A stretch of DNA of 64,000 bases, taken from contig JADLBL010000018.1 in assembly GCA_020847735.1 (NCBI GenBank), positions 62,001 to 126,000 of the forward strand. Direction: 5' to 3'. This document shows, piece after piece, positions 1,229 to 62,844 of this stretch. Every line of letters begins with the position of its first letter. Position 1 is the stretch's first letter. A program made the translations under genes and the position numbers. This stretch comes from Candidatus Eisenbacteria bacterium. Its GTDB lineage: Bacteria > Eisenbacteria > RBG-16-71-46. The notes under the pieces are model-generated. The model was given only the letters and a program-made list of their open reading frames with translations. It made no database searches and was not told the origin of the DNA.

Positions 1229-3682
1229 ATGCGCATCCTTGCTGCTGTTGTCGCCTTCCTGCTGTTCGCCTCGAGCGCGACCCCCGTGCACGCCGCCTGG
1301 CCGAACAGCCCGTTCACGAACCTGCCGCTGTGCACCGCGGCGGACAATCAGGAGACCCCGAGGATCATCCCGGATGGCACAGGAGGCGCGATCGTCACCT
1401 GGCAGGACTTCCGCAGCGGCACGAACTACGACATCTTCGCGCAGCACGTGCTGGCGTCGGGTGCGGTGGATCCGGCGTGGCCGGCCGATGGCCGCGCGCT
1501 GTGCACCGCGGCGAACGACCAGAATCTCCCGATGATCGTCCCGGATGACTCTGGTGGCGCGATCGTCACCTGGCAGGACGGCCGCAGCGGTACGAACTGG
1601 GACATCTACGCGCAGCACGTGCTGGCGTCGGGTGCGGTGGATCCGGCGTGGCCGGCCGACGGCCGCGCGCTGTGCACCGCGGCGAACTATCAGATCTACC
1701 CAATGATCGCGCCGGATGGCTCTGGTGGCGCGATCGTCACCTGGCAGGACATCCGCAACGGCGGGTTTTACAACATCTACGTGCAGCATGTGCTGGCCTC
1801 GGGTGCGGTGGATCCGGCGTGGCCGGCCGACGGCCGCGCGCTGATCACCATGGCGAACAACCAGACTGACCCGATGATCGTCCCGGATGGCTCTGGTGGC
1901 GTGATCGTCACCTGGGAGGACTACCGAAGCGGCACGGTCAGCGACATCTATGCCCAGCACCTGCTGGCGTCGGGTGCGGTGGATCCGGCGTGGCCCACGG
2001 GCGGCAACGCGCTGTGCACCGCGGCGGGCGACCAGAACTCCCCGATGATCGTTCCTGATGGCGCCGGCGGCGCGATCGTCACCTGGTACGACCTCCGCAG
2101 CGGCACGAACTTCGACATCTACGCGCAGCACGTGCTGGCCTCGGGCGCGGTGGATGGGGCGTGGCCCACGGACGGCCGCGCTCTGTGCACCGCGGCGAAC
2201 GACCAGTTCTACCAGCAGATCGTCGCGGACGGCGCCGGCGGCGCGATCGTCACCTGGCAGGACTACCGCAGCGGCACGAACTTCGCCATCTACGCGCAGC
2301 ACGTGCTGGCCTCGGGCGCGGTGGAGCCGGCGTGGCCGGCGGACGGCCGGGCGCTGTGCACTGCGGCGAACAACCAGTACTCCCCGACGATCGTCGCGGA
2401 CGGCGCCGGCGGCGCGATCGTCACCTGGGTCGACTACCGCAGCGGCAACTACGACATCTACGCTCAGCACGTGCTGACCTCGGGTGCGGTGGATGGGGCG
2501 TGGCCCACGGACGGCCGGGGGTTGTGCACCGCGGCGAACACCCAGAACTACCCGATAATCGCCCCGGATGGCTCAGGCGGCGCGATCGTCGCCTGGACTG
2601 ACTACCGCAGCGGTACGGGCTCCGACATCTACGCGCAGCGCGTCGAGGGGTTCGGCCGGCTCGGCAACCCCGAACCCACGATCGCGAGCCTGCGCGACGT
2701 GCCCTACGACAACGGCGGGCGCCTCAAGCTCTCGTGGGCGGCGAGCTACCTCGATGCCGCGCCGTTCAACGGGATCTACCAGTACGAGGTCTGGCGCTCG
2801 ATCCCGCCCGGCGCGGCGCAGGCGCGCCTGCGCGGCGGGGCCCGGCTGCTGCGGCCGGACGCGCTCGCGCCGCTCGCGCGGGACGGGGCGCTGCTCGCCA
2901 CCGCCAACGGCACGCAGACGATCTACTGGGAGTACGTCGCGACCCAGCCCGCGCGCCGGTTCGCCGGCTACAGCTACGAACTGCCCACCACCGGCGACTC
3001 GGTCGCGGCGGGCATCCCGGTGACGCAGGCGCTGGTCCTGGCGCTCGCCAGCGACGGCTACTCGTTCTGGACCTCGCAGCCGATGTCGGGCTACTCGGTG
3101 GACAACCTGGCGCCGGCCGCGCCGGCGCCGTTCACGGGCGAGTACGCGGCGGGCAGCGCGACGCTCCACTGGGGCCGCAACGCCGAGGCGGACCTCGCCG
3201 GCTACCGGCTCTACCGGGGCACCGTGCCGGGGTTCGTGCCGGGCCCCGCGAACCTGGTGTCGGCGCTGGCCGACACGGGCTACACGGACGTGGCGGGGCA
3301 GCCCTACATCTACAAGCTGACCGCGGTGGACGTGCACGGCAACGAGTCGCCGGTGGCGACGCTGTCGCCGTCGGGAACGCTGGCGGTGGACGGCTCCGGC
3401 GCGGCGACGCTGGCATTCGCGCCGCCCTCGCCCAACCCGGCAAACGCGCGGACGGTGCTGCGCTACACGCTGCCGGGTGCGGGGGCGGTGAAGCTGGCGA
3501 TCTACGACGCGGCGGGCCGGCAGGTGCGGGTGCTGGCGGCGGGGGTGCGCGAGGCAGGCGAGCACGCCGAGGCGTGGGATCTGCGCGACGAGGGCGGACG
3601 GGCGGTCCGCGCGGGGCTCTACTTCGCGCGCTTCGAGGCGGCGGGCGTCGCGCGCGTGCGCAGGGTGGCCGTCGCGCGCTGA
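1229..3682 (+). CDS. Secreted repeat protein with eight 57-residue repeats, Fn3-like segments and FlgD-like tail
   Basis: 817 residues. The ATG follows a purine-rich ribosome site (GAGGAGA) and encodes a signal peptide (MRILAAVVAFLLFASSATPVHA). Residues about 33-470 hold eight copies of a 57-residue unit centred on GGAIVTWxDxRSGTNxDIYAQ; one repeat per blade would give an eight-bladed propeller, which is inference. Two Fn3-like segments follow (about 485-650 and 650-710, 'ADLAGYRLYRGT'). The last 80 residues are the FlgD-like/T9SS-type domain, which in other FCB bacteria directs export or attachment. The next gene is a tandem paralog with seven repeats. The ligand is unknown; a surface-displayed or secreted binding protein is the likeliest role. 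Confidence 0.85.
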   Translation: MRILAAVVAFLLFASSATPVHAAWPNSPFTNLPLCTAADNQETPRIIPDGTGGAIVTWQDFRSGTNYDIFAQHVLASGAVDPAWPADGRALCTAANDQNLPMIVPDDSGGAIVTWQDGRSGTNWDIYAQHVLASGAVDPAWPADGRALCTAANYQIYPMIAPDGSGGAIVTWQDIRNGGFYNIYVQHVLASGAVDPAWPADGRALITMANNQTDPMIVPDGSGGVIVTWEDYRSGTVSDIYAQHLLASGAVDPAWPTGGNALCTAAGDQNSPMIVPDGAGGAIVTWYDLRSGTNFDIYAQHVLASGAVDGAWPTDGRALCTAANDQFYQQIVADGAGGAIVTWQDYRSGTNFAIYAQHVLASGAVEPAWPADGRALCTAANNQYSPTIVADGAGGAIVTWVDYRSGNYDIYAQHVLTSGAVDGAWPTDGRGLCTAANTQNYPIIAPDGSGGAIVAWTDYRSGTGSDIYAQRVEGFGRLGNPEPTIASLRDVPYDNGGRLKLSWAASYLDAAPFNGIYQYEVWRSIPPGAAQARLRGGARLLRPDALAPLARDGALLATANGTQTIYWEYVATQPARRFAGYSYELPTTGDSVAAGIPVTQALVLALASDGYSFWTSQPMSGYSVDNLAPAAPAPFTGEYAAGSATLHWGRNAEADLAGYRLYRGTVPGFVPGPANLVSALADTGYTDVAGQPYIYKLTAVDVHGNESPVATLSPSGTLAVDGSGAATLAFAPPSPNPANARTVLRYTLPGAGAVKLAIYDAAGRQVRVLAAGVREAGEHAEAWDLRDEGGRAVRAGLYFARFEAAGVARVRRVAVAR
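1329..2645 (+). repeat. Tandem 171-bp coding repeats (8 units)
   Basis: The phrase GATCGTCACCTGG recurs every 171 bp, for example near 1390 and 1561. Units differ mainly at a few codons, giving long near-identical DNA stretches prone to recombination. Confidence 0.9.
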
Positions 3683-3768: not shown

Positions 3769-3923
3769 TGCGTGCGCCGGGTGCTTCGCGCGGATTGCCG
3801 CTTGCCGTGGGCTGCGCGGCGAGGAGATGCTTGTGCGCACAGGGGGCGGGCCGCCCCATGTTTCCATGGGCGCCAGAGCGGCGCGCCAGGTCATTCCACC
3901 CGATCCCTCTCCGGGAGGAGCCC

Positions 3924-6200
3924 ATGCGCATCCTCGCTTCCGCAGCCGTCTGCCTGCTGTTCGCCTCGAGTGCGCCCCCCGCGCAGGCCGCCTGGCCGAA
4001 CAGCCCGTTCACGAACCTTCCGTTGTCCACCGCGGCGAACGAGCAGTCCTACCCGACGATCGCCTCGGACGGCGCCGGCGGCGCGATCGTCACCTGGCAG
4101 GACTTCCGCAGCGGCACGAACTCCGACATCTACGCGCAGCACGTGCTGGCCTCGGGCGCGGTGGATCCGGCGTGGCCGGCGAACGGCCGGGCGCTGTGCA
4201 CCGCGGCCTCCAACCAGGCCTCCCCGACGATCGCCTCGGACGGCGCCGGCGGCGCGATCGTCACCTGGTACGACTTGCGCAGCGGCAACAACGACATCTA
4301 CGCGCAGCACGTGCTGGCGTCGGGTGCGGTGGATCCGGCGTGGCCAGCGAACGGCCGCGCGCTGTGCACCGCGGCCTCCAGCCAGTCCTCCCCGACGATC
4401 GTCGCGGACGGCGCCGGCGGCGCGATCGTCACCTGGTACGACTACCGCAGCGGCACGAACTCCGACATCTACGCGCAGCACGTGCTGGCCTCGGGTGCGG
4501 TGGATCCAGCGTGGCCGGCCGACGGCCGGGCGCTGTGCGCCGCGGCGGACGACCAGTACTACCCGCAGATCGTCGTGGACGGCGCCGGCGGCGCGATCGT
4601 CACCTGGTATGACTTGCGCAGCGGCAACAACGACATCTACGCGCAGCACGTGCTGGCCTCGGGCGCGGTGGATCCAGCGTGGCCGGCGAACGGCCGGGCG
4701 CTGTGCACCGCGGCCTCCGATCAGGCCTCCCCGATGATCGCCTCGGACGGCGCCAGCGGCGCGATCGTCACCTGGTATGACTTGCGCAGCGGCAACTACG
4801 ACATCTACGCGCAGCACGTGCTGGCCTCGGGCGCGGTGGACCCGGCGTGGCCGGCCGACGGCCGCGCGCTGTGCACCGCGACCTCCGACCAGGCCTCCCC
4901 GATGATCGCCTCGGACGGCGCCGGCGGCGCGATCGTCACCTGGTACGACTCCCGCGGCGGCAACTCCGACATCTACGCGCAGCACGTGCTGGGCTCGGGC
5001 GTGGCGGATCCGGCGTGGCCGGGGGACGGGCAGGCGGTGTGCACCACGACGAACGACCAGTACTCCCCGAAGATCGTCGCGGACGGCGCCGGCGGCGCGA
5101 TCGTCACCTGGCAAGACAAGCGAGGTGGCACGAACTACGACATCTACGCGCAGCGCATCGGCCGCCACGGCTACCTGGGCACGCCGGAGCCGGAGATGGT
5201 CGCCGTCGGGGATGTCGCGAACGACCAGGGCGGCCAGGTGAAGGTGTCGTGGAACGCGAGCTGGCTCGACCTCGCGTCCAACCCCGAGTTGGACGCCTAC
5301 GACGTGCTGCGCTCGGTGCCGACCTCGTTCGCGGCGCAGGCCGCGGCGCGCGGTCTCCGCGTGCGCGCGCTGACGAGCGGGTCCGCGCCGCCCGAGCCGG
5401 GGGATCTCGTCGCGCTGCCCATGAACGGGACCACCTACTACTGGGAGTACCTCACCGAAATCACGCCGCGGCACTACCTGGCCGGCTACAGCTACGTCGC
5501 GGCCACCCTGGGCGATTCGATCGCGGGCTCGAACCCCGGGACCGCGTTCATGGTGGTGGCGCGCAACTCGGCGATCACGATGTGGTGGCCGTCGCTGCCG
5601 ATGTCGGGCTACTCGGTGGACAACCTGGCGCCGGTGGCGCCGGCGCCGTTCACGGGCGAGTACGCGGGCGGCGCGACGAACCTGCACTGGCGGCCGAACG
5701 CCGAAGCGGACCTGGCGGGCTACCGGCTCTATCGGGGAACCAGCGCGGCGTTCGTGCCGGACGGGGCGAGTCTGGTGGCTGCGCTCGCCGACACCGGCTA
5801 CGCCGACGCGGGCGCGGCGGGGCGCTGGTACAAGCTCACGGCGGTGGACGTGCACGGCAACGAGTCGCCGGTGGCGACGCTGTCGCCGTCGGGGACGCTG
5901 GCGGTGGACGGCTCCGGCGCGGCGGCGCTGGCGTTCGCGCCGCCCTCCCCCAATCCGGCGAACGCGCGGACGGTGCTGCGCTACACGCTGCCGGCTGCGG
6001 GGGCGGTGAAGCTGGCGATCTACGACGCGGCGGGCCGGCAGGTGCGGGTGCTGGCCGCCGGACCGCGCGAGGCGGGCGAGCACGCCGAGGCTTGGGACCT
6101 GCGCGACGAGGGCGGCCGGGCGGTGCGCGCGGGGCTCTACTTCGCGCGCTTCGAGGCGGCGGGTGTGGCGCGCGTTCACAGGGTGGCCGTCACGCGCTGA
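3924..6200 (+). CDS. Secreted repeat protein with seven repeats, paralog of the preceding gene
   Basis: 758 residues from the ATG at 3924, chosen because GGGAGGAG lies just upstream and a signal peptide follows (MRILASAAVCLLFASSAPPAQA); an upstream ATG in frame at 3795 has neither. Seven units of the GGAIVTWYDLRSGNNDIYAQ type occupy about residues 33-410, one fewer than the neighbour. Fn3-like segments and the FlgD-like domain follow and are nearly identical at DNA level to those of the neighbour. Leader, repeats, tail and 3' hairpin are all shared, which shows a tandem duplication followed by loss or gain of one repeat. The role is unknown. Confidence 0.85.
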   Translation: MRILASAAVCLLFASSAPPAQAAWPNSPFTNLPLSTAANEQSYPTIASDGAGGAIVTWQDFRSGTNSDIYAQHVLASGAVDPAWPANGRALCTAASNQASPTIASDGAGGAIVTWYDLRSGNNDIYAQHVLASGAVDPAWPANGRALCTAASSQSSPTIVADGAGGAIVTWYDYRSGTNSDIYAQHVLASGAVDPAWPADGRALCAAADDQYYPQIVVDGAGGAIVTWYDLRSGNNDIYAQHVLASGAVDPAWPANGRALCTAASDQASPMIASDGASGAIVTWYDLRSGNYDIYAQHVLASGAVDPAWPADGRALCTATSDQASPMIASDGAGGAIVTWYDSRGGNSDIYAQHVLGSGVADPAWPGDGQAVCTTTNDQYSPKIVADGAGGAIVTWQDKRGGTNYDIYAQRIGRHGYLGTPEPEMVAVGDVANDQGGQVKVSWNASWLDLASNPELDAYDVLRSVPTSFAAQAAARGLRVRALTSGSAPPEPGDLVALPMNGTTYYWEYLTEITPRHYLAGYSYVAATLGDSIAGSNPGTAFMVVARNSAITMWWPSLPMSGYSVDNLAPVAPAPFTGEYAGGATNLHWRPNAEADLAGYRLYRGTSAAFVPDGASLVAALADTGYADAGAAGRWYKLTAVDVHGNESPVATLSPSGTLAVDGSGAAALAFAPPSPNPANARTVLRYTLPAAGAVKLAIYDAAGRQVRVLAAGPREAGEHAEAWDLRDEGGRAVRAGLYFARFEAAGVARVHRVAVTR
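4015..5155 (+). repeat. Tandem coding repeats (7 units) of the second paralog
   Basis: Units of 168-171 bp; the three-base difference reflects SGTNS versus SGNN in the repeat. They are strongly similar to the repeats at 1329-2645. Confidence 0.9.
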
Positions 6201-8665: not shown

Positions 8666-8998
8666 CTACCCGAGCACCCGCCACAGGAGGAGCGCGACGG
8701 CCACGACGTACAGGGTGCCGCACACGGGAAAGATGCGGTCGGCCGCCCACTTCGGCAGGAACAGGTCCGTGACCGAGCCCTTGAGCGCGCCGCGGCGCTC
8801 GGCGAGCACGGTGAGCGGACAGCGCCAACCCGAGCGCCACAGCACGAGGCTCTCGATCAGGAGCGCCGTCACGGCCACCCAGGTCCACGGCGTGACGCGG
8901 CCCGTGAGCCCGCTGTAAAGCGCGTACACCGTGCACGCGCTCAGGATCCAGAACGCGATCGAATGGACCAGCTTGATGCCGAACAGGGTGACCTTCAC
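8666..8998 (-). CDS. Small four-helix membrane protein with CPLT motif
   Basis: 110 residues from a GTG start that overlaps the stop codon of the TonB-like gene (GTGA, 8998-8995), implying translational coupling. Four hydrophobic segments are visible, and after the second comes GWRCPLTVLAERRGA. The pattern CPLT ... LP.W ... FG.LYV is typical of a widespread uncharacterised family of small integral membrane proteins (DUF2784-like in layout). No enzymatic role is known to me. The coupling with a TonB-like protein is the only functional hint. Confidence 0.75.
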   Translation of the reverse strand: MKVTLFGIKLVHSIAFWILSACTVYALYSGLTGRVTPWTWVAVTALLIESLVLWRSGWRCPLTVLAERRGALKGSVTDLFLPKWAADRIFPVCGTLYVVAVALLLWRVLG

Positions 8999-9717
8999 CG
9001 CAGCGAGAAGCGGATGGGCACCGCCACCCACACCATGACCGGGTGCCCGTTGGAGAGCGCCGGCGTGAACACCCACTGGCGCGCGGCCGCCACCGCCGCC
9101 TCGTCGAGCAGAGCGACCGAGCGGTCCACGTGCACGTCCTTCACGCGGCCGTCCCTGCCGACCAGCACCCGGAGCCGCACGGTGCCGTCCACTCCGGCCT
9201 CCAGCGCGATCTCGGGATACTCGGGCTTCACCTGCGTGACGACCGCGGGTGGCTCGTCGTAGAGGACGAAGTCCCGCAGCCCGGGCACCGCTTCGTCGGC
9301 GGGTGGAGCCGGCGTCGCGACGCCGCCATCCGACGGAGTCGCCGCACCCGCATCCGATCGCCGAAGCTCGTCCTGCGATGCGATGGGCGCTTCGGGCGGC
9401 GCCGTCGCGTCCGGCACCGGAACGGGATGCGCGGCGCCCGCCGGCGATATGCGCGGCGCCGTCGGCGGCGTCGGCAATGGCGCAACGGGCTCCAGCGTGG
9501 GCGGCGGCTCGAGCGTGACCACGACCGGGTCCGGGAGGAATCGTTCCCCCGCATGGCGCGCGAGCCATGCGCTCGCCGCGAGCAGGAGCGCGAACAGGAT
9601 GACGAGCCCCGTGCTGGCGGTCGCCAGTGCGCGGATGAGGTGGGTGTCGCGCACTTCGAGAAGCTCGGGCGCCCCGTAGGGGACGAACTCGTACAGCGTG
9701 ACGCGGGGTCGGTTCAT
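8995..9717 (-). CDS. TonB family protein
   Basis: 240 residues. One transmembrane anchor lies at about 29-50 (ASTGLVILFALLLAASAWLA), then a proline-rich spacer (about 62-135) and a TonB C-terminal domain (about 150-240: VKPEYPEIALEAGVDGTVRL ... LLDEAAVAAARQWVFTPAL). TonB links inner-membrane energy to outer-membrane receptors. No ExbB/ExbD genes are near, so it may work with remote partners. It is transcribed divergently from the kinase gene and coupled to the small membrane protein. Confidence 0.88.
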   Translation of the reverse strand: MNRPRVTLYEFVPYGAPELLEVRDTHLIRALATASTGLVILFALLLAASAWLARHAGERFLPDPVVVTLEPPPTLEPVAPLPTPPTAPRISPAGAAHPVPVPDATAPPEAPIASQDELRRSDAGAATPSDGGVATPAPPADEAVPGLRDFVLYDEPPAVVTQVKPEYPEIALEAGVDGTVRLRVLVGRDGRVKDVHVDRSVALLDEAAVAAARQWVFTPALSNGHPVMVWVAVPIRFSLR

Positions 9718-9870
9718 GACGCCTCCGGTTCCGCCCGGCACGGGCGACTGTAGTCCGATTACGCCCGCGGCGCGACGGCTATTCCGGAGCCGATCGGGCC
9801 CGGACGAGAGAAGGTCGGCGGCGTGCGGCCGCGACCCCGGAATCCGTAGCATTCGCCCCGGCCGCCCCGC

Positions 9871-9876
9871 TATCCT
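9871..9876 (+). promoter_or_regulatory. Possible -10 box of a leaderless transcript
   Basis: TATCCT ends nine bases before the GTG at 9886, and no Shine-Dalgarno sequence is present. Two other plus-strand genes (27574 and 47544) show the same arrangement. No convincing -35 hexamer is visible. Confidence 0.3.
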
Positions 9877-9885
9877 GCGCGACTC

Positions 9886-12543: not shown

Positions 12544-12661
12544 GGTCGCGGGCGGCAGCGAAGTCGGCCCCGGGTCGGCCGGCGCCCACGCGGCTGCGCC
12601 CTCCGACGGAAGTCGCGACTCTGGAAGGGGAACCTCCCGATCGCCCCCGGACGACCCGCGC

Positions 12662-14632
12662 CTACGGCGCAGTCGCGGCCTGCTTCGCCGCCGTCCCGAT
12701 CGTCTCGTCGAGGAACTGCACCGCCCGCTCGTAGAAGTAGATGCGGTTGTCGAGCTTCTGGAAGCCGTGGCCCTCGTCGGGCGCGATGAACACGCGCGGC
12801 GACTGCCGGCGGTCCTTGAGGGCGATCGCCAGTTGCATCGCCTCCTCCACCGGAACGCGTGGATCGTTGAAGCCGTGGGCGATGAAGAACGGCACGTTCA
12901 TCTTGTCCACCTTGTGAATGGACGAGATGCTCTTCAGGAACTCGGGGTCGGTGAGCGGGCCGTATTCCGCCTCGCGCAGCTTGCGCCGGTAGCCACTGGT
13001 CTTCTCGAGGAAGGTCTGCATGTTGACGATGCCGACGACGTCAATCGCGGCGCCGAACAGCCGTTCCTTGCGCGCGCCGCGATCCACGCGGTCCTGATCC
13101 TCGACGATGCATGCGACCGACATGAAGCCGCCGTACGAGCCGCCGTAGGTCGCGATCGCGCCGGGCCGCGCGTAGCCCTGCTTCACCAGCCACTCGGCGG
13201 CGTCCACGCCATCGCGCACGCTGTCCCAGCGGCCCTTGTAGTTGTCGAGCATCTGGTACTCGCGGCCGTAGCCCGTGCTGCCCCTCACGTTGGGCATCAG
13301 CAGGCCGTAGCCGCGGGAGACGAAGTACTGGAGCGCGGCGCTGAAGCCCGGGCGGTTCTGGCCCTCCGGGCCGCCGTGGTAGTAGACGACGAACGGAATC
13401 GGGTGACCCGCCTGGTGGCCCTCGGGCAGGTACAGGAACGCCGGGATCGGCCGGCCGTCGAAGGCCGGGTAGCGCACCAGTTCGGGCAGGCGGAAGCGCG
13501 AGAGGTCCACGCCGGCGTCGTCGGTCCAGGTCAGTTGCTTCGTCACCGGTGCGCCGCCCGGCGTGAACGTGGTGGCGTATGCCTGTCCGGCGTTGCGCGC
13601 GTTCGAGAGCGACCAGACGAGCGTCGAGCCGCGGAACTCCGAGCCGCCAACGACGCCCTTTTCCATGGGCGGCGCCGCCATCGGCTTGAAGCCCGGCACG
13701 GTGTAGAAGTGCGGCACCGCGTAGCCGTCCTCGTTGGTGACGACGAGGAGCATGTCGCGGCGGTCGTTGAGCCCGGCGCCATCCAGCTCGAAGCCCGCGA
13801 GCGACGGGATCGCGTCGGTGATCCTGCCGCTCTTGAGATCCCGCACGTACAGGCGCTGCTTGCCGCCGTTCAGGTCCGAGGAAAGCAGCACCGACTTCTC
13901 GCCGGGCAGGTATCCCTCGGCGCTGCACGATGCCGTGCCGCCCGCGGGTGCGATGGTCAGTTCGGTGCGCTTGCCGGTCGCGAGGTCCATCTCCCACACA
14001 TGCGCGTCGGAGGCCGACAGGCGGTTCGAGAGCAGCACGCGCGAGCCGTCGTCGGTCACGCCCGCGATACGCCAGCTTCCGGGCTCGCCGAGAATCCGGC
14101 GCGCCTTTCCGGTCGCGAAGTCGTACCGGTAGAGGTAGAAGTCGTTCGGGCTCTCGTCGTTCGCCGAATAGAAGAAGCCCGAGCCGTCGCGCAACCAGGC
14201 GTTGATGGACGCCTGCACACGGGGGTTCGCGAGCACCGGAGTGAGCGGCGCGATCCCTGGCGCCGTCGGATCAATTAGCGAGAGCTGCGTGTTCTCGTCG
14301 CCGCCGCGCGCATGGGCGATCACGCAGCGTTTGCCGTCGGGCGAGAGAGAGAAGCTCGAAACGCCGTCGGGGAAGTTCGTGAGCTGCGTGCGCACGACCT
14401 CGCCCGGCGCGTACGAGGCGTTCGGCCCCGGTGCCTTCGGCGTCACGCGGTAGAGCTGCCAGACGCCGTCCGGCCAGTCGCGAAGGAGCAGCGAGCCATC
14501 CGGCAACAGCACCGGCGTGCCGGGCGTGCGGACCTTGAGGAACTGCGCGACCGAGGGCGCGTCGGCGGCGGTCGCGACGGGCGCGAAGAGGGCCGTACCC
14601 GCGATCAGGAACAGCGCGACGAGGGAACGCAT
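12662..14632 (-). CDS. Exported S9-family prolyl oligopeptidase-like peptidase
   Basis: 656 residues, with signal peptide (MRSLVALFLIAGTALFAPVATAA) from the ATG at 14632. Residues about 40-390 form the beta-propeller gate and about 400-650 the alpha/beta-hydrolase domain. The catalytic triad can be placed at Ser499 (GGSYGG), Asp590 (GFNDPRVP) and His622 (DEGHGF). Such enzymes (S9C/DAP type) cleave short peptides in the periplasm. Length and motif order are typical. It converges with the kinase gene; the 207-bp gap to the aconitase-like gene upstream of it suggests its own promoter. Confidence 0.92.
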   Translation of the reverse strand: MRSLVALFLIAGTALFAPVATAADAPSVAQFLKVRTPGTPVLLPDGSLLLRDWPDGVWQLYRVTPKAPGPNASYAPGEVVRTQLTNFPDGVSSFSLSPDGKRCVIAHARGGDENTQLSLIDPTAPGIAPLTPVLANPRVQASINAWLRDGSGFFYSANDESPNDFYLYRYDFATGKARRILGEPGSWRIAGVTDDGSRVLLSNRLSASDAHVWEMDLATGKRTELTIAPAGGTASCSAEGYLPGEKSVLLSSDLNGGKQRLYVRDLKSGRITDAIPSLAGFELDGAGLNDRRDMLLVVTNEDGYAVPHFYTVPGFKPMAAPPMEKGVVGGSEFRGSTLVWSLSNARNAGQAYATTFTPGGAPVTKQLTWTDDAGVDLSRFRLPELVRYPAFDGRPIPAFLYLPEGHQAGHPIPFVVYYHGGPEGQNRPGFSAALQYFVSRGYGLLMPNVRGSTGYGREYQMLDNYKGRWDSVRDGVDAAEWLVKQGYARPGAIATYGGSYGGFMSVACIVEDQDRVDRGARKERLFGAAIDVVGIVNMQTFLEKTSGYRRKLREAEYGPLTDPEFLKSISSIHKVDKMNVPFFIAHGFNDPRVPVEEAMQLAIALKDRRQSPRVFIAPDEGHGFQKLDNRIYFYERAVQFLDETIGTAAKQAATAP

Positions 14633-39066: not shown

Positions 39067-39834
39067 CTAGCGATAGAGGCTCTTGACGCGGCCCCAGCTC
39101 GAGGCGGCCGCCGGAGTGGGCAGCAGGTAGGAGACGAGCTGGTAAAGCGTCCCGGCGTCGTACTGCACGAGTCCCACGTCGTCCGCGTACCACTCGAAGG
39201 CGCTCTCGGGGCCCGTGGCCGAGGGCCCGGCCGCCGGCCCCGCGAGCCGGCCGTCGAGCGCGAGCGCCTCTCCGCGCGGCGCGAATGGCAGCGCCGGCCC
39301 CGCCGGCCGCGCCGGAGGCGGAACCTGCGCCACCCCGAAGCAGTCGAACGATCCCGCCGGGTTCACCAGCGTCGCGTGCCCCTGGACCTTCCACCAGCTG
39401 TCGAACTCGCCGAAGGTCACGTTGTCCGGAATGGCGATGGCGCGCGTGTGCTGGTTCCACTCGAGGCCCAGCACGGGCGAGCCGGGAAAGATCCGGACCG
39501 GCGGCTCGTAGACAAGGCCGAAGGGTATGCTCGCCCGGTAGTAGCCACCGAGCAGCACGCTGCCGTCGGTGTCGAGCATCCAGAAGTTGATGAGCCCGTC
39601 GTCGGCGCCGCCCGAGTACGTCTTGATGTACATGCGGCGCCCCCGCACGCGCACCGGCTCGGTGATCTCCTCGAAGTGCGGCTCGTCGGCCTCGTTCATG
39701 TACTGCCAGCGGTTGCCGACGTCGAGCGGCAGCCACTCGGCGCGCGCCGCGCCGCCGGGCATGAGCGCGCCGGCGCAGGCGGCCAGCGCGAGCGCGGGCA
39801 GTAACGCGAGCGGGTGCCGCCTCCCTGGCGCCAT
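39067..39834 (-). CDS. Exported protein ending in the SSWGRVKSLYR tail
   Basis: 255 residues from the ATG at 39834. The signal peptide (MAPGRRHPLALLPALALAACAGALMPGGAARA) contains a Cys (AACAG) that could be a lipobox. The mature part starts EWLPLDVGNRWQYMNEADEP, a pattern common in secreted proteins of unknown function whose first strand resembles lipoprotein-like beta-sheet domains. The last eleven residues are SSWGRVKSLYR, identical to the end of the protein at 55059. No catalytic motif is seen. It is divergent from the 917-residue metalloprotease gene. Confidence 0.8.
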   Translation of the reverse strand: MAPGRRHPLALLPALALAACAGALMPGGAARAEWLPLDVGNRWQYMNEADEPHFEEITEPVRVRGRRMYIKTYSGGADDGLINFWMLDTDGSVLLGGYYRASIPFGLVYEPPVRIFPGSPVLGLEWNQHTRAIAIPDNVTFGEFDSWWKVQGHATLVNPAGSFDCFGVAQVPPPARPAGPALPFAPRGEALALDGRLAGPAAGPSATGPESAFEWYADDVGLVQYDAGTLYQLVSYLLPTPAAASSWGRVKSLYR

Positions 39835-55058: not shown

Positions 55059-55808
55059 TCAGCGATACAGGCTCTTCACGCGGCCCCAGCTCGACTTCTC
55101 GGTCGGAACCGGACCCGAGATCACGGAGAGCTGATAGCCCGGGTTCGCGTTCTGGCCCGCGATCGTGTACCAGCCGGCGGCCCCCACGGTGCTCGCGTCA
55201 ACGTACATGTCGGGACCGCTGCTGCCGACGGTCGGAGGATCCAGGGAGGCGATGCCGAGCCGGGTCGCCGTGCCCGTGAACGAAGCCACGGTCTGCAGCG
55301 CGATGACGTCCGTGGTGTTGAGGTCAATGGCGAGCGGATCGAGGTTCGTCACCGAAATGAACGTGTAATAGCCGGGGTCGAGTCCGGCGCCGAAGTCAAT
55401 GTTGGCGCTGAAGCCGCCCAGGTAGCCCGACGTGACCGCGTCGTAGAAGTCCACGCCGAAGCTGGCGGTCAGCACCGGCCCGGCGCTGGAGCTGGAATTG
55501 TAGAACGTGAAGGTCGCGGCCTGCAGAGTGCCGGTGCCGGTCGTGAACAGCTCATCGCCGAAGACGGCGCCCAGGTCGGTCGAACTGAAGCCGAAGTTCG
55601 CCGCCGAGGCGGTGTTGTCGTAGATGACGATCGGCAGCGCGGCCGGAGCGGTCGGCTGGATCTTCGTCGTGTGCGTCGCGTGGTTGTGGATCGTGTAGCC
55701 CTTGAAGCCGCCCAACGGCTCGCTCGTGAGCTGGGCCGCCGCGCTTCCCGCGAACGCGCACAGCGCGAGGGCGGCGATGGACAGGCGCATCGTGGTCGCA
55801 AGCTTCAT
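55059..55808 (-). CDS. Exported beta-rich protein ending in the SSWGRVKSLYR tail
   Basis: 249 residues from the ATG at 55808, preceded by GGAGGAG. A signal peptide (MRLSIAALALCAFAGSAAA) is followed by a beta-rich domain (IVIYDNTASAANFGFSSTDL; TFTFYNSSSSAGPVLTASFG; DPPTVGSSGPDMYVDAS). That domain resembles secreted proteins which in planctomycetes often end in a PEP-CTERM anchor. Here the end is a short linker and SSWGRVKSLYR, the same eleven residues as at the end of the protein at 39067. The function is unknown. Confidence 0.82.
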   Translation of the reverse strand: MKLATTMRLSIAALALCAFAGSAAAQLTSEPLGGFKGYTIHNHATHTTKIQPTAPAALPIVIYDNTASAANFGFSSTDLGAVFGDELFTTGTGTLQAATFTFYNSSSSAGPVLTASFGVDFYDAVTSGYLGGFSANIDFGAGLDPGYYTFISVTNLDPLAIDLNTTDVIALQTVASFTGTATRLGIASLDPPTVGSSGPDMYVDASTVGAAGWYTIAGQNANPGYQLSVISGPVPTEKSSWGRVKSLYR

Positions 55809-56192
55809 GAAGACTCCTCCGGGCCCGACGAAGAGTTGGACGCGGATCGCACGGTCTCGGGGGCGGCCGCGATCCAGAGCACGCGCCTCGCGTCGGGGGA
55901 CAGGCGCGGATGCTCGTGAATCGAGCTTACGCGTGACCGCCGGTCGCATGTCAACGGCGGACTGCGCGTGTGCGGATTTGCGCATCGCGAGCGCGTCGTC
56001 GTTTGGATCGCGATCTTTCGGCGGGTTTTGGAGCGTACTGTTGGCGTTTCCAGACACTGAACCTGGCCGCTATTGCGCTTGTTCCTACGGCGGCCCTGCC
56101 GGTAACGTTTTCCGGTGCTGCGCCACATTCGGAGCGTGGCCCCGTTCGCCCGTCCCCACCGTCGTCCGATCACCCCACCGAGGAGTCCTCCC
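55809..56192. other. Non-coding divergent region
   Basis: 384 bp between the start of the tail-bearing protein (-) and the M36 peptidase (+). It is notably less G+C-rich near 55960-56090. It holds the minus-strand promoter candidate at 55924-55954; no clear plus-strand promoter hexamers were found. Confidence 0.6.
55924..55954 (-). promoter_or_regulatory. Candidate promoter of the tail-bearing exported protein
   Basis: On the minus strand a perfect -35 TTGACA (55954-55949) is followed 19 bp later by TAAGCT (55929-55924). The resulting 5' UTR would be about 110 nt. The long spacer lowers confidence. Confidence 0.4.
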
Positions 56193-59100
56193 GTGCGGCG
56201 AGAGTTCCCCCGTTCGCTGGCCCTGCTCATCCTGTTCGCGCGGGCCTCTCCCCTCGGCGTCGCCGCAGGCCCGCTTTCCGAGTACGACGCGGCCGCGGCC
56301 GTTCGAATCCCCCCCGCCGCGGCCGCCCGCGCGCAGGCGGCCGCCGCGCTGCCAGGGATCCGCCGGCTCGTCCGCGTGTCGAGCACGAACGATCGCTTCG
56401 GGGTTCCAACGTTCGTGTGGGCGAATCGGGCGCCCGCGACCGCCGTGACCGCCCGGCCGTCGTCGCGGCCCTCGCCGGGCGCCGCCGCGCGCGCGCACGT
56501 TTCGGACCTCGCGCCGCTCTGGCGGCTGGACCGTGCGGATGTCGCCGGCATGCGCCTGCAACGGGTGCGCGACGTCGGCCGCGGCCCGATCATCGCGACG
56601 TTTCGGCAGGAGGTCGGCGGCGTCGAGGTGTTCCGCGACGAGCTCAAGGTGTGCATGGACCGCGACCTCTCGCTCGTCTCGGTGAGTGGCTCGCTGCCGC
56701 CGGCTTCCGCCGCGGGTCCGAGCACCGACGTGTTCGCGCTCCCCGCTTCGCGGGCGGTCGCGCTCGCGCTGCGCGACTTCGGCTCGCTCGCCGCGGTTCC
56801 GGCCGACCCGGCCGCGACCGGGAGCGCCGACGGCGGCTACCAGACGTTCGCCGCGCCCGGGCCGGTCGGCGAACCGGGTGGCATGCCCGCCGTGAACGGG
56901 CCGCTGCGCGCACGCAAGGTCTGGTTCGATCTCGGCGCGACGCTCGAGCCCGCCTGGTACGCCGAAGTCATCGGCGAGACCGCCGCCTACTCGACCGTCT
57001 GGTCGGCGCGCGACGGCCGGCTGCTCTTCCGGCATTCGCTGATGCAGGACGAAGCCTATTCCTACCGCGTGTGGGCGAACACGACGGCCCCCTACGCGCC
57101 GATGGACGGACCCCAGGGCGACGGCGCATCGCCGCATCCGACCGGGCTGCCGGACCTGTACCAGCCTTCGCTGATCGCTCCCAACATGGTGACGCTGCAG
57201 AACGGCCCGATCTCGACCCTCGACCCGTGGCTCGCCCCCGGCGCGACCCAGACGACCGGCAACAACGTGGACGCCTACCTCGACCTCGTCGCGCCGGACG
57301 GCTACTCCGCGGGCGACCTGCGCGCCACCACGACCTCGCCCGGAGTCTTCGACCGCACCTACGACACGACCCTCCCCCCGGGCGCGAGCGACGACCAGCG
57401 CATGGCCGCGGGGACCAGTCTGTTCTACCTGAACAACTGGCTGCACGACATGTTCTACGACTCCGGCTTCGACGAGGCGGCGGGCAACGCGCAAACGGAC
57501 AACTACGGGCGGGGCGGCATCGGCGGCGACGCGGTCCTCGCCGAGGGCGAGGACTACGGCGGAACCAACAACGCGAACATGTCCACGCCGGCCGACGGCG
57601 GTTCGCCGCGCATGCAGATGTACGTGTTCAACCCTCCCAACAGCGCCAACCTGATCGTGTCCTCGCCGCCCGCCCTCGCGGGCACCTACCTGGCGGGCGT
57701 CGCCGTGTTCGGCCCGCAGACCTTTTCCCTGAGCGGCCAGGTGGTCGCCGGGCAGGACGCGGCCGCGCCGGTGGACGACGGCTGCACGGCCATCACCAGC
57801 GCGGTCGCCGGAAAGATCGCGCTCGTGGATCGGGGAACGTGCTCGTTCGTGATCAAGGCACAGAACGCGCAGAACGCCGGCGCGATCGGCGTGATCATCG
57901 TCAACAACGTCGCCGGCTCGACGCCGCCGACGCTGAGCGGCACCGGCACGATCACGATTCCGGCGCTGTCGGTGACGCAGTCGGACGGGGCGCTGATCCG
58001 CGCCCAGCTCGGCGCGGGCGTGACGCTGACGATGAATCGCGTGGCGCAGCTCCAGCGCGACGGCACCATTGACGGGCACATCGTCGCCCACGAGTGGGGG
58101 CATTACATCAGCAACCGCCTGATCGGCAACGCCGCGGGCCTGAGCAACCAGCAGGGCGGCGGCATGGGCGAGGGCTGGGGGGACTTCCACTCGCTGCTGC
58201 TGACCGTGCGGCCCGGCGACGACCTCGCGGGCGCGTACGCGGTCGGCAGCTACGCGCTGAGCGGCAATCTCGTCGCGTCGAACGCGTGGTATTTCGGCGT
58301 GCGCCGCTACCCCTACTCGACCGACATGACGAAGGATCCCCTGACCTTCAAGCACATCCAGAACGGCGTCGCGCTGCCCGCGGGGCCACCCCTCAACGGC
58401 AACCCGACGGGCCTCAACAACGCCGAAGTGCACGCCACCGGCGAGGTCTGGTGCACCATGCTGTGGGAGTGCTACGCCGCGCTGCTCGGCGACACCGGCC
58501 GGCTGACGTTCGACCAGGCGCAGCAGCGCATGAAGGACATCCTCGTCGCCGGCTACATGCTGACGCCGAACGCGCCGACGTTCGTCGAGGCGCGCGACGC
58601 GGTCCTCGCGGCGGCGATGGCGGGCGATCCGGCGGACTACGCGCTCCTGGCGCAGGCGTTCGCCAGGCGCGGCATGGGCACCGGTGCCGTCGCGCCGCCG
58701 CGTGACGCCTCGGACAACGTCGGCGTGACCGAGAGCTTCGTGCTCGGCGGCGACCAGTCGGTGGTCTCCGCGACGCTCACCGACGACCTCCACTCGTGTG
58801 ACGACGACACCTACCTCGACAACGGCGAGCGCGGGGCGCTGACGATCACCGTCGTCAACACGGGCGCGACCAGCCTCGGCCCGGGCACGATCACGGTGAC
58901 CAGCCCGAGCCCCGGCGTGAGCTTCCCGATGGGCAACGTGGTGGCCACGCCCGCGTCGCAGCCGTTCGGGAGCGTGGTCGTGACGGTGCCGGTCGAACTC
59001 GCGGGCGCGTCCGATGGCGCCCTGCTGCACCTCGACATCGCCTGCGACAACGCCGGGCTGCTGGTGCCCGGTCCCCGGCTCGCGTCGTACGAGGACCGCG

Positions 59101-59999
59101 TGCAATCGGACGAGACGTTCGGCGCCACCGATTTCGTCGAGGCGCATCACTCGACCTGGAACCCGCTCGTCGCGCCGGGCAGCGCCGGCGATCCCTGGGC
59201 CCGCGAGGCGTGGGCCAGCGGCGAGAATGCCTGGCACGTCACCGACGCGGGCGGCATCGCCGACCTGTCGCTGGTCTCCCCTTCCCTGTTCGTGAGCACG
59301 GGCACGCCGCTGGTCGTCACCTTCCAGCAGCGCTACGTCTTCGAGTTCAGCGACGCCACGAACTGGGACGGCGGAGTGATCGAGATTTCCACCGACGGCG
59401 GCTCGAGCTGGACCGACGCCGGCGCCAGCGTCTCGCCGGGCTACGGCGGAACGATCACGAACGCCTCGGGCAACCCGCTGGGCGGGCGCTCCGGGTGGGT
59501 CGGCACGAGCGCCGGCTATCCGGCCTTCACCTTCACCACCCTCGATCTCGGCACGAGCTACGCCGGACAGACGGTGCTGATCCGTTTCCGGCACGGCGCC
59601 GACGCGGGCGTCGGCGCTCCCGGCTGGTGGGTGGACAACGTCGCGGTCACGGGCGTGACCGCGCCGCCCTTCCTCGTGCTCGCGCCCGAGAGCGGCACGT
59701 GCACGCCGCTGGCGGTCGGCGAGGCCGCCCCGTCGCGGGTCCTGCTGGCGCTGGCCGGCGGAAACCCCGCGCGCGACGTGTCGCGCCTGCGCTTCGCGCT
59801 GCCCGCGCGGCAGCGCGCGCAGCTCACCATTCACGACCTCGCCGGGCGGCTCGTCGCGACGCTCGCCGACGGCGAGTACACGGCGGGCTGGCACGACGTC
59901 GCGTTCACACGCGCGGGCGGCTCGTCGCCCGGCGTCTACTTCGCCCGACTGCGCGTGGACGGGCGGCAGTACGTGCAACGGCTGGTGGTCGTTCGCTGA
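56193..59999 (+). CDS. Secreted M36 fungalysin-like metalloprotease with PA and FlgD-like domains
   Basis: 1268 residues from the GTG at 56193, chosen because GAGGAG lies 7 bases upstream and a signal peptide follows (LALLILFARASPLGVAAG); the upstream ATG at 56115 has no ribosome site. A propeptide-like (FTP) region spans about 60-200. The protease core has HEWGH (His633, Glu634, His637) and GEGWGDF (Glu660). A PA domain inserts at about 500-620 (GKIALVDRGTCSFVIKAQNA). The C-terminus carries a carbohydrate-binding-like beta region and the FlgD-like/T9SS domain. It degrades extracellular protein. It converges with the M6 peptidase gene. Confidence 0.93.
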   Translation: MRREFPRSLALLILFARASPLGVAAGPLSEYDAAAAVRIPPAAAARAQAAAALPGIRRLVRVSSTNDRFGVPTFVWANRAPATAVTARPSSRPSPGAAARAHVSDLAPLWRLDRADVAGMRLQRVRDVGRGPIIATFRQEVGGVEVFRDELKVCMDRDLSLVSVSGSLPPASAAGPSTDVFALPASRAVALALRDFGSLAAVPADPAATGSADGGYQTFAAPGPVGEPGGMPAVNGPLRARKVWFDLGATLEPAWYAEVIGETAAYSTVWSARDGRLLFRHSLMQDEAYSYRVWANTTAPYAPMDGPQGDGASPHPTGLPDLYQPSLIAPNMVTLQNGPISTLDPWLAPGATQTTGNNVDAYLDLVAPDGYSAGDLRATTTSPGVFDRTYDTTLPPGASDDQRMAAGTSLFYLNNWLHDMFYDSGFDEAAGNAQTDNYGRGGIGGDAVLAEGEDYGGTNNANMSTPADGGSPRMQMYVFNPPNSANLIVSSPPALAGTYLAGVAVFGPQTFSLSGQVVAGQDAAAPVDDGCTAITSAVAGKIALVDRGTCSFVIKAQNAQNAGAIGVIIVNNVAGSTPPTLSGTGTITIPALSVTQSDGALIRAQLGAGVTLTMNRVAQLQRDGTIDGHIVAHEWGHYISNRLIGNAAGLSNQQGGGMGEGWGDFHSLLLTVRPGDDLAGAYAVGSYALSGNLVASNAWYFGVRRYPYSTDMTKDPLTFKHIQNGVALPAGPPLNGNPTGLNNAEVHATGEVWCTMLWECYAALLGDTGRLTFDQAQQRMKDILVAGYMLTPNAPTFVEARDAVLAAAMAGDPADYALLAQAFARRGMGTGAVAPPRDASDNVGVTESFVLGGDQSVVSATLTDDLHSCDDDTYLDNGERGALTITVVNTGATSLGPGTITVTSPSPGVSFPMGNVVATPASQPFGSVVVTVPVELAGASDGALLHLDIACDNAGLLVPGPRLASYEDRVQSDETFGATDFVEAHHSTWNPLVAPGSAGDPWAREAWASGENAWHVTDAGGIADLSLVSPSLFVSTGTPLVVTFQQRYVFEFSDATNWDGGVIEISTDGGSSWTDAGASVSPGYGGTITNASGNPLGGRSGWVGTSAGYPAFTFTTLDLGTSYAGQTVLIRFRHGADAGVGAPGWWVDNVAVTGVTAPPFLVLAPESGTCTPLAVGEAAPSRVLLALAGGNPARDVSRLRFALPARQRAQLTIHDLAGRLVATLADGEYTAGWHDVAFTRAGGSSPGVYFARLRVDGRQYVQRLVVVR

Positions 60000-60033: not shown

Positions 60034-62628
60034 CTACTTCACCAGCGTCAGCTTCCGCACGTCCGAGAAGCCTCCCGCCGTGATCCGGTCGAAGTACACG
60101 CCCGGGCCCGCCGGGCGGCCCTCGTCGTCGCGCCCGTTCCATCTCAGCGCGTATGCGCCCGCCGGCTGCTCGTCGTCCACCAGGGTGCGCACCACCGCGC
60201 CGTTCACGTCGTAAACGCGCAGCACCACGTGGGCGTGCGCCGGAAGCTCGTAACGGAGGGTGGCCGTTTCCCTGAACGGGCTCGGGTACGCCGGCAGCAG
60301 GGCGAACCTGCGCGGCGCCGGGTGCGTGACGGCCACGCTTCCGCTGAGCGTGAACGCCTGCGGAAGCGCCGCGCTCGCGCCCCCCGGGTTGAACGCGACC
60401 ACGTCGTAGGCGCCGTTGGCGCCGCCCGTCAGGTCGAACCGCGCGATCACGCGATCCTTGCCCGCCCAGTACACGGACGTGGCGCCGAACGTCCGTGCGC
60501 CATGCACGAGCTGAACGCCGCCGCCCTTCGCGAAGAGCGCGCCGTCAACCTGGAGCGTCACGCTGGTGCCCGTCGCCGCGTTCGGCGTGACCGACACCGG
60601 CACCGGCGCGGGCCAGCCGCCCGCGAGCGTCGCGTTCAGGGGGTCGGCGTTGGGGCCCGTGAGCCGCACCGACACGATGCTCGGTCCGTCGTAGCCGTCG
60701 CTGCTGGGCGACGAGGCGCCGTCGAGGCGGTCGTTGCCGGTCGTTCCGGGATAGGGATCGCCGTCGTCTCCGCGGTTGATGTTGCCCTCGAGCTGCGCGA
60801 GATGGTCGGCCTGGACCACGGCCACGCCGCGCGGCTGGTTGTCGAACCGGCCGCCGCTCTGCGTGTTCTGCTCGATGTGCCAGACCACCAGGCCACCCCC
60901 GGGTGCGGTGCCGGGGATGTTCACGTCCGAGCCGATGGGCTTGCGGTTCTCCACCAGGAAGTACTCGGAGGGCGGGTTCATCTCCTCGGCCCAGCCGTCC
61001 TCACGGGTCTCGAAGTCGGTGAAGTAGCTCTCGCCGCCGCCCGTGACTGAGATGTCGTCCAGCGAGATCGCGCCGCACTGGGTGCCGACCCCGGACTGAT
61101 CCGAGTACCACCCGTCGCTGACGAGGTGAAATGCCACCGTGTACGGCCCCGGCGAGAGATACGGCGTCAGGTCCACGGTCTGCGTGCCCGATGTCTGCCC
61201 CTGGTTGTCGTTGTAGGTCGCGAAGACGCTCGTGGTTCCGCCAGACGTGACCTCGCCGTACACGAAGTCGTTCGGAGGCGCCTGACCGTACGTGTAGGTG
61301 AACTCGAACCGGTACTGGTACTGCAGCGACACGCTGCCTGATCCGCCGTAGTTGAACTCGCGCGACACGCGCGTGTCCCAGTCGTCGCCGTAGCCGCTCA
61401 CGTTCGAGTTCTCCCAGTTGCGGCCGGCCGCCTCCGCGGAGGTCAGTCCGCAGTGCATCGAGTACGCACCGGCGATCGGACAGAGCGTCGAGCGGCGCCA
61501 CCGTTCGTGCACGACGTCGAGGCGGTAGGCCTCGCGGTTCATCTCCGCGTCGGGAATCGCGTAGGGCGTGGGTTCCGGCGGGGCGACGATCACGTTCGAC
61601 CAGCCGAGAAAGTTTTTCGACCAGGCGCCCATGTACGCGGGGTTGTCGGGCTGGTTCCAGTTCCCGGCACCCATCAGGTCCCACCAGCCCACGCCCGACG
61701 ACCCGCCGTCGGTGTCGTACAGGTCGGGAAGCCCGAACGTATGGCCGAACTCGTGGCAGAACACCCCGATGTCGATCATGGTCGTGTTGTCGCAGTTCAG
61801 GGCGGGTTCGATCGTGTAGTCGTCCACCTTGATGAAGCCTCCGCCCGTGCGCGCGTCGTTGGTCGTGTACGGCCCGGGCCCGACGCCCTCGGACCGCCAC
61901 CCCGCAAGTGAATAGCAATGCGACCAGATCTGGTCGTACACATCACACTCGGCGCCGAGCTGTGAGTGCACGAACGACACGAAGTCCACGAAGCCGTCAT
62001 CGTCTCCCGAGTTGGGAATGCCGTCCGGGCCGTCGTTGTCGTACTGCCCGAAATCGATCGAGGAGTCGTTGGCGGAGATCGTGGTGGCGATGAGTTCCGT
62101 GATGCGCGCCGACGAGCACAGGCCCTGGCACATGGCCTGACCGGCGTAGTACACGGCGGTCTGCGGAAGGGACGTCCAACCGTAGACGGTGCCGGTCACA
62201 TGGAGATCGCCGTGCGAGTTCTCGTCGTAGAACTGCGTCAGCGTGCGCGGCGAGTACGGGCCGTCGAAGAGCCGGGTCTGCAGTTGCGCGATCGGGAACG
62301 GATCCGCTCCCACGTCGCTGTACTTCACGCAGAAGACGGGGACGGACAACGTGCCGCGCACCTCGAGTTCCGAACGCGCCGCCGCCGGAATCAGCTCGCG
62401 TTTGTAGAAGCCGCGGTCCTCGATGAACTTCTCGCGGTTCGCGCGGATCGCCCGGGTCTTCGCGATCCACGCGTGCTGGGACTCGAACCTCCGCATGCGG
62501 TCCAGGCTCTGACGGACCCGCGGCGGCATCGTCACGCCCGGGGCGGGAGCGACGCCCTGCGCCCGGGCGCACTGCGCGAGCACGACGCAGGCCAGAACCA
62601 ACTTCAGAGTCGCAACCGAGCAGCGCAT
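60034..62628 (-). CDS. Secreted M6 family metalloprotease with FlgD-like tail
   Basis: 864 residues from the ATG at 62628. A signal peptide (MRCSVATLKLVLACVVLAQCARA) precedes a propeptide. The zinc site HEFGHTFGLPD (His292, Glu293, His296, Asp302) matches M6 (immune inhibitor A) peptidases; LMGAGNW follows as the Met-turn. After about 400 there are beta-sandwich segments (TVDLTPYLSPGPYTVAFHLV) and, from about 780, the FlgD-like/T9SS domain (LPAYPSPFRETATLRYELP; GPGVYFDRIT). It should be secreted and cleave proteins outside the cell. It converges with the M36 gene with a 34-bp gap. Confidence 0.93.
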   Translation of the reverse strand: MRCSVATLKLVLACVVLAQCARAQGVAPAPGVTMPPRVRQSLDRMRRFESQHAWIAKTRAIRANREKFIEDRGFYKRELIPAAARSELEVRGTLSVPVFCVKYSDVGADPFPIAQLQTRLFDGPYSPRTLTQFYDENSHGDLHVTGTVYGWTSLPQTAVYYAGQAMCQGLCSSARITELIATTISANDSSIDFGQYDNDGPDGIPNSGDDDGFVDFVSFVHSQLGAECDVYDQIWSHCYSLAGWRSEGVGPGPYTTNDARTGGGFIKVDDYTIEPALNCDNTTMIDIGVFCHEFGHTFGLPDLYDTDGGSSGVGWWDLMGAGNWNQPDNPAYMGAWSKNFLGWSNVIVAPPEPTPYAIPDAEMNREAYRLDVVHERWRRSTLCPIAGAYSMHCGLTSAEAAGRNWENSNVSGYGDDWDTRVSREFNYGGSGSVSLQYQYRFEFTYTYGQAPPNDFVYGEVTSGGTTSVFATYNDNQGQTSGTQTVDLTPYLSPGPYTVAFHLVSDGWYSDQSGVGTQCGAISLDDISVTGGGESYFTDFETREDGWAEEMNPPSEYFLVENRKPIGSDVNIPGTAPGGGLVVWHIEQNTQSGGRFDNQPRGVAVVQADHLAQLEGNINRGDDGDPYPGTTGNDRLDGASSPSSDGYDGPSIVSVRLTGPNADPLNATLAGGWPAPVPVSVTPNAATGTSVTLQVDGALFAKGGGVQLVHGARTFGATSVYWAGKDRVIARFDLTGGANGAYDVVAFNPGGASAALPQAFTLSGSVAVTHPAPRRFALLPAYPSPFRETATLRYELPAHAHVVLRVYDVNGAVVRTLVDDEQPAGAYALRWNGRDDEGRPAGPGVYFDRITAGGFSDVRKLTLVK

Positions 62629-62844
62629 GAGGAAGTCCCTCCGCAGGTGCGATGCCCCAACGCGCCACCGGGCTCCAGGGGGCATCCGTCGCTCGCACAG
62701 CGGCCCCTATCGGGCACGTGTCCTTACCGGGAAAACGAGGGGGCGCACCCGGGCGAACACGGAATATCGCCCGCCGGCCGGGGATGCGTGCCCGACGCCC
62801 CGTGCCCGGAGCGCGGCCCCGGCGCGTAGGCGCTCCGCCCGATT

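Follow-up and report, generated by a model that had tools for sequence, protein, structure and literature searches.

To our knowledge, the C-terminal sorting signals of Gram-negative bacteria are either folded domains of at least 40 residues, as in T9SS, or tags made of a motif plus a membrane helix, as in PEP-CTERM and its relatives. In PEP-CTERM and sortase-type tags (LPXTG, GlyGly-CTERM, MYXO-CTERM) a hydrophobic membrane helix is placed between the motif and the basic end. T9SS domains of type A (Por_Secre_tail, TIGR04183) are folded beta-sandwiches of about 100 residues read by PorV (PMC12618676). Those of type B (TIGR04131) measure 150-235 residues, are read by PorP/SprF-like shuttles, and set a precedent for the use of several signal classes by one translocon (PMC12618676). 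Shorter T9SS domains (40-55 residues), which include motifs B, D and E and three predicted strands, have been found in Prevotella intermedia, the only species of its phylum reported to host both long and short forms (PMC11969387). For the secretion of GFP, the C-terminal 22 residues of Hbp35 are reported to be the part absolutely required (cited in PMC11969387); in length they are the nearest precedent to the tail described here.

This tail, hereafter called the tag, resembles type A domains in being C-terminal, in belonging to Sec-exported proteins, and in serving many unrelated cargos in each genome. Both signals occur in the same genomes and replace each other on homologous bodies, but the tag is about 16 residues long, is predicted to be unfolded, and is matched by no T9SS model. 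As in P. intermedia, shortened C-terminal signals are found beside long ones in one genome; the tag, however, does not reach half the length of the P. intermedia domains, the shortest natural T9SS signals that we found described, and lacks motifs B, D and E. Genes encoding type B proteins are often linked to a shuttle gene, whereas tagged genes have no recurrent neighbour. PEP-CTERM/exosortase and sortase-type tags share with the tag a short C-terminal motif, a basic end, the association with exported proteins and a number of "choice-of-anchor" bodies, but the tag has no membrane helix, and consists of some 16 residues only. The tag would act like the known sorting families and can be filed under none of them, as it departs from T9SS domains in sequence and fold, and from the other tags in the lack of a helix. 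No model of the tail is present in NCBIfam 20.0 or Pfam, and none of their C-terminal tag models matched it; no solved structure matched it, although a 20-residue query makes this a weak test, and no description was retrieved by searching open-licence papers. The tag is thus apparently undescribed.

The window, a stretch of 64,000 nucleotides from a Candidatus Eisenbacteria genome, encodes two tagged proteins (Table 1). Both end exactly in SSWGRVKSLYR, as reported in the initial annotation, are followed by different stop codons (TAG and TGA, respectively), and are the only proteins of the window with this C-terminus. Their bodies had been said to be unrelated, and this holds: BLASTP aligns only the last 25 residues (16/25 identical, E=1e-6), finds nothing credible across the bodies, and neither body matched a family in Pfam or NCBIfam. 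Homologs of protein 1 are found in 4 additional genomes within the phylum; those of protein 2, found in two genomes of the same genus, are 54-56% identical and keep the tag. The tail DNAs are identical at 31 of 33 bases, again as annotated. Yet, in tails from this genome the same codon is used at identical residues in 58% of cases, against 62% expected from codon usage, and the match at the DNA level therefore carries no extra information. Selection thus acts on the peptide, and the codons give no sign of recent DNA copying. As for the extent of the shared end, set at 11 residues in the initial annotation, identity was confirmed, but the conserved element reaches further upstream as [TVS]-P-[VTA]-E, for a total of about 16 residues.

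Table 1. Features of the window related to the tag and to T9SS sorting domains
Feature	Position	Strand	Remarks
Tagged exported protein 1	39067..39834	-	255 aa; signal peptide, body, C-terminal tag
Tag of protein 1, TPAAASSWGRVKSLYR	39070..39117	-	final 16 residues; the 11 residues first annotated are 39070-39102
Signal peptide (Sec, predicted) of protein 1	39739..39834	-	about residues 1-32; rule-based prediction
Tagged exported protein 2	55059..55808	-	249 aa; signal peptide, body, C-terminal tag
Tag of protein 2, VPTEKSSWGRVKSLYR	55062..55109	-	C-terminal end
Signal peptide (Sec, predicted) of protein 2	55734..55808	-	about residues 1-25; rule-based prediction
T9SS type A sorting domain (TIGR04183)	59763..59990	+	end of M36 metallopeptidase-like protein 56115-59999; 25.0 bits, cut-off 23
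T9SS type A sorting domain	60049..60288	-	end of M6 metalloprotease-domain protein 60034-62685; 23.0 bits, at cut-off
T9SS type A sorting domain	3431..3667	+	end of ORF 1229-3682; 24.5 bits
T9SS type A sorting domain	5949..6185	+	end of ORF 3795-6200; 24.3 bits

The motif can be written as [TVS]-P-[VTA]-E-x-[ST]-[ST]-W-G-x-[IV]-K-x-L-[YF]-R-stop. In 185 tails, W is found at position -9 (100%), G at -8 (98%), K at -5 (100%), L at -3 (86%), Y at -2 (92%), R at -1 (98%), and S or T at -10, the conservation of W, G, K, R and S/T being partly imposed by the search pattern. Residues upstream, which are outside the pattern, are conserved as well: T, V or S at -16, P at -15 (59%), V, A or T at -14, and E at -13 (49%). 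The conservation of Gly is real, since removal of the Gly and S/T requirement in twelve low-count genomes yielded one extra match only, itself featuring WG. Of 208 cases, 192 close with [YF], a single Arg and the stop codon. In other families of the class, protein 1 homologs retain SWGx[IVL][KR] with different ends (LYAPSRVTR, FGLK, RILGR); the core hence reduces to P-x4-[ST]WGx[IV]K, with the exact LYR end frequent rather than obligatory. Just seven residues follow W-G, with a Lys in the middle of the run and a terminal Arg, which bears out the statement that the tail lacks the hydrophobic helix of exosortase tags.

Further tagged proteins, on which the initial annotation had made its proposal depend, are indeed encoded in the 3.66-Mb genome: the strict pattern WGRxKxxYR-stop is matched 8 times, and a looser one at about 20 places, almost always with [YF]R-stop as the exact end; the reversed pattern, used as control in the same genome, is never matched. 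Within the phylum (Candidatus Eisenbacteria) the tag was identified in 40 of 47 genomes, for a total of 485 matches, and 27 tag-bearing genomes were reached from other records; reversed patterns gave 0 matches in either set. In a collection of species genomes the tag was matched in at least 80 entries; those listed have record titles referring to Candidatus Eisenbacteria, Krumholzibacteriota/-iia, Latescibacterota, Aegiribacteria, Effluviviaceae, UBP1 and unnamed bacteria, and a few, as labelled in the records, to taxa such as Fibrobacter, Gemmatimonas, Gemmatimonadota and Planctomycetota. Copies reach 53 in one of the genomes counted (G050). The distribution is uneven: the tag is missing in most of family f11 and in G012. 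The T9SS-bearing genomes of the same class with no tag match are G012, G038, G039 and G043-G046, and would provide a contrast set for tracing a receptor. A 3.5-kb contig titled Planctomycetota (L097, JADZDL010000390.1) hosts three tagged paralogs. These are the only tag matches in the 7.1-Mb genome to which the contig is assigned (G069, also titled Planctomycetota), which has no SprA match, and the contig has probably been misbinned.

ORF statistics were drawn from the fetched loci (1.48 Mb), mostly selected for the presence of the tag. The relaxed core [ST]WGx[ILVM][KR] falls within about 12 residues of the stop codon in 224 of 226 instances, a figure inflated by this choice of loci. Away from the standard position the core was met 22 times, in 20 of them again close to a C-terminus, and the 7 occurrences of the reversed core exhibit no C-terminal bias. 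The enrichment of signal peptides, for which the initial annotation had proposed a test, was found: signal peptides were predicted in 152 of 164 tagged ORFs (93%) and in 152 of 614 other ORFs (25%; p ~1e-59), a contrast to be taken as approximate, because background ORFs were called mechanically and some are not genes. The same rule (charged start, hydrophobic stretch, AxA-like site or lipobox) was applied to all ORFs, and most of the 12 tagged ORFs devoid of a signal peptide are cut or overlong. Tagged bodies fall into at least 74 unrelated clusters, and include choice-of-anchor J and V, DNRLRE, TQXA, MXAN_6652, ExeM-like, cohesin, CBM and Cleaved_Adhesin families, several of which are known from proteins with other C-terminal anchors; some are relatives of proteins with MYXO-CTERM, GlyGly-CTERM and LPXTG-type anchors. 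One tagged family, of 9 sequences, was modelled with AlphaFold2; its body is beta-rich, mostly at pLDDT 70-89, and resembles best, with low TM-scores, cohesin- or adhesin-like structures. The last 18 residues have a pLDDT of about 30 and are predicted to be disordered, and the tail is the densest run of invariant residues in the family. A tail that is conserved yet lies outside the fold conforms to the pattern expected of a recognition peptide. Location in the middle of a conserved domain in homologs, which had been named as a finding that would speak against a tag, was not observed; the tail is terminal.

The genomes hosting the tag encode T9SS components (SprA, PorV family, C25 peptidase). 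TIGR04183 domains have been identified in 47/47 genomes of the phylum, 9 in the smallest and mostly from 30 to at least 97 elsewhere, and four ORFs of the window end in them. SprA is matched in 46 of these 47 genomes, above cut-off in 38, the weakest few matches being probably due to chance or to fragments in incomplete assemblies, and in 26 of the 27 tag-bearing genomes from other records, above cut-off in 24, G069 being the exception. Where the tag occurs T9SS is present, but the presence of T9SS is insufficient for the tag, since most of f11 and G012 carry T9SS and no tag. This distribution fits a tag using T9SS plus one more component, and also mere shared ancestry. Joint occurrence of SprA and the tag is a test of little power, given how common SprA is throughout these phyla. 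SprA, C25 and the PorV family are present in tag-rich and tagless genomes alike, and their counts do not separate the two groups; PorV-family and tag counts correlate weakly (Spearman 0.39), but the correlation vanishes once f11 is left out. Nor does any gene family recur among the neighbours at about 115 tagged loci, and no common neighbour was seen on inspection by eye of genomes with one to three tags. C25 (gingipain/PorU-type) peptidase matches number 18-29 in each of four genomes (G004, G007, G008, G011), against 2-5 in most relatives.

Tag and T9SS domain seem to exclude each other. TIGR04183 (at E<=0.01) and TIGR04131 were found in 0 of 66 diverse tagged sequences. A T9SS-domain HMM built for this analysis matched 0 of 164 tagged proteins and 29 of 614 untagged ones, the tagged proteins being the shorter ones in the comparison (median 244 vs 674 residues). 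In turn, the two signals alternate on related bodies. At one locus (L067) a body domain is common to three adjacent genes, of which the outer two end in TIGR04183 (29 and 34 bits) and the middle one in the tag; at another (L041), of two adjacent homologous genes one has a T9SS domain, the other the tag. Such natural swaps are the strongest sign that tag and T9SS domain perform a comparable job, and the tag may be read as an alternative to the T9SS domain, as no protein examined carries both. The gene divergently oriented next to that of protein 2 encodes the M36 metallopeptidase-like protein (56115-59999, + strand), which has a T9SS end, yet scores highest with the model of myxosortase-dependent M36 proteins (1411 bits). 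Judged from these matches, the protein would be another case of anchor swapping.

Taken together, the large number of tagged proteins, the enrichment in signal peptides and the swap with T9SS domains, a behaviour typical of sorting signals, support the early proposal of a short sorting tag, and the swaps on homologous bodies make the comparison with PEP-CTERM and T9SS tails, drawn at that stage, a sound one. The tail is very probably a modular C-terminal sorting or anchoring signal of Sec-exported proteins. Proteins would be exported by Sec, and the tag subsequently read by an envelope receptor, which may direct them to the outer membrane or to the cell surface, as the T9SS domain does. The route may in turn be T9SS, the tag being possibly recognized by the SprA translocon and/or by one of the about ten PorV-family shuttles per genome. 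That the route is T9SS itself, which would make the tag a third and far shorter signal class beside types A and B, is a possibility to which we incline slightly less than to its contrary. In sequence the tag does not match T9SS domains, and the spacing of its residues suits an amphipathic helix, whereas T9SS domains are built of beta-strands. A broader view is more likely than not to be correct, according to which the tag is either such a third class or belongs to a surface-sorting pathway of its own, so far undescribed, in several candidate phyla. In either case a linear peptide of about 16 residues, with neither a fold nor a membrane helix, would suffice to bring dozens of proteins of each cell to the surface.

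Tags of this kind might alternatively be recognized, independently of T9SS, by a dedicated envelope protease or transpeptidase, which would cut or attach the protein following the logic of sortases and exosortases without a membrane helix. The exact C-terminal position is in line with this hypothesis, as is the near invariance of W, G, K, Y and R, in part due for W, G, K and R to the selection of hits. The same is true for the finding of tagged bodies in families which elsewhere carry sortase-type tags, and of T9SS-bearing genomes lacking the tag. Still, the tag has no membrane segment to hold the substrate, unlike sortase-type tags, no neighbour gene recurs, and tag-bearing genomes do bear T9SS, and we consider a dedicated enzyme rather unlikely. 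The tail could also be the anchor itself, a short amphipathic helix docking non-covalently on membrane, lipopolysaccharide or a surface scaffold. Trp, Ile, Leu and Tyr would lie on one face, Lys and Arg on the other; the spacing W1-I4-L7-Y8, with Ser/Thr ahead of W, is compatible with a capped amphipathic helix, and the mean helical moment of the tails exceeds that of shuffled tails (0.549 vs 0.399). The strand-like moment (170-180 degree) is equally raised, however, and a helix is not singled out. Moreover, binding to membranes does not usually call for individual residues, or a terminal Arg, to be as nearly invariant as they are here, and self-anchoring is viewed as improbable.

A role as periplasmic degradation or quality-control signal, bound by a C-terminus-recognizing protease of the PDZ type, would be in line with the prevalent [YF]-Arg ending. 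A destabilising signal is not expected to be kept across phyla and in dozens of domain types, nor to be exchanged with T9SS domains, and homologs with extra or other residues past the core retain W-G-x-[IVL]-[KR]; this role is very improbable. Mere coincidence, or a recombination event that duplicated the end of one gene, could be invoked on the grounds of the near identity of the two tails of the window at the DNA level, but hundreds of matches were obtained with the pattern and none with its reverse, synonymous codons vary among the tails to the extent expected from codon usage, and the bodies are unrelated. On these three counts the explanation was rejected, and we assign to it a negligible weight.

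If the sorting function is confirmed, a linear tag that is this widespread and only about 16 residues long would represent a simpler kind of signal, and would define part of the surface proteome in several uncultured phyla, where most such proteins are now labelled hypothetical. The tag would make it testable how little information suffices to take a protein through the outer membrane or place it there, and might find a use as a small export label in laboratory protein work.

Four tagged genes are arranged in tandem, and several of them are paralogous, at one locus (L201, G000:C15:160001-180000, tagged ORFs at 8853-12743), about 7 kb away from a match to C25 (PorU-like) peptidases (G000:C15:160088-161401). 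Lastly, a tagged ORF of 429 aa (L113) carries a second, internal tag core, TSWGVIKYCF, about 186 residues before its end, which resembles the outcome of a fusion between a tagged protein and a duplicate.
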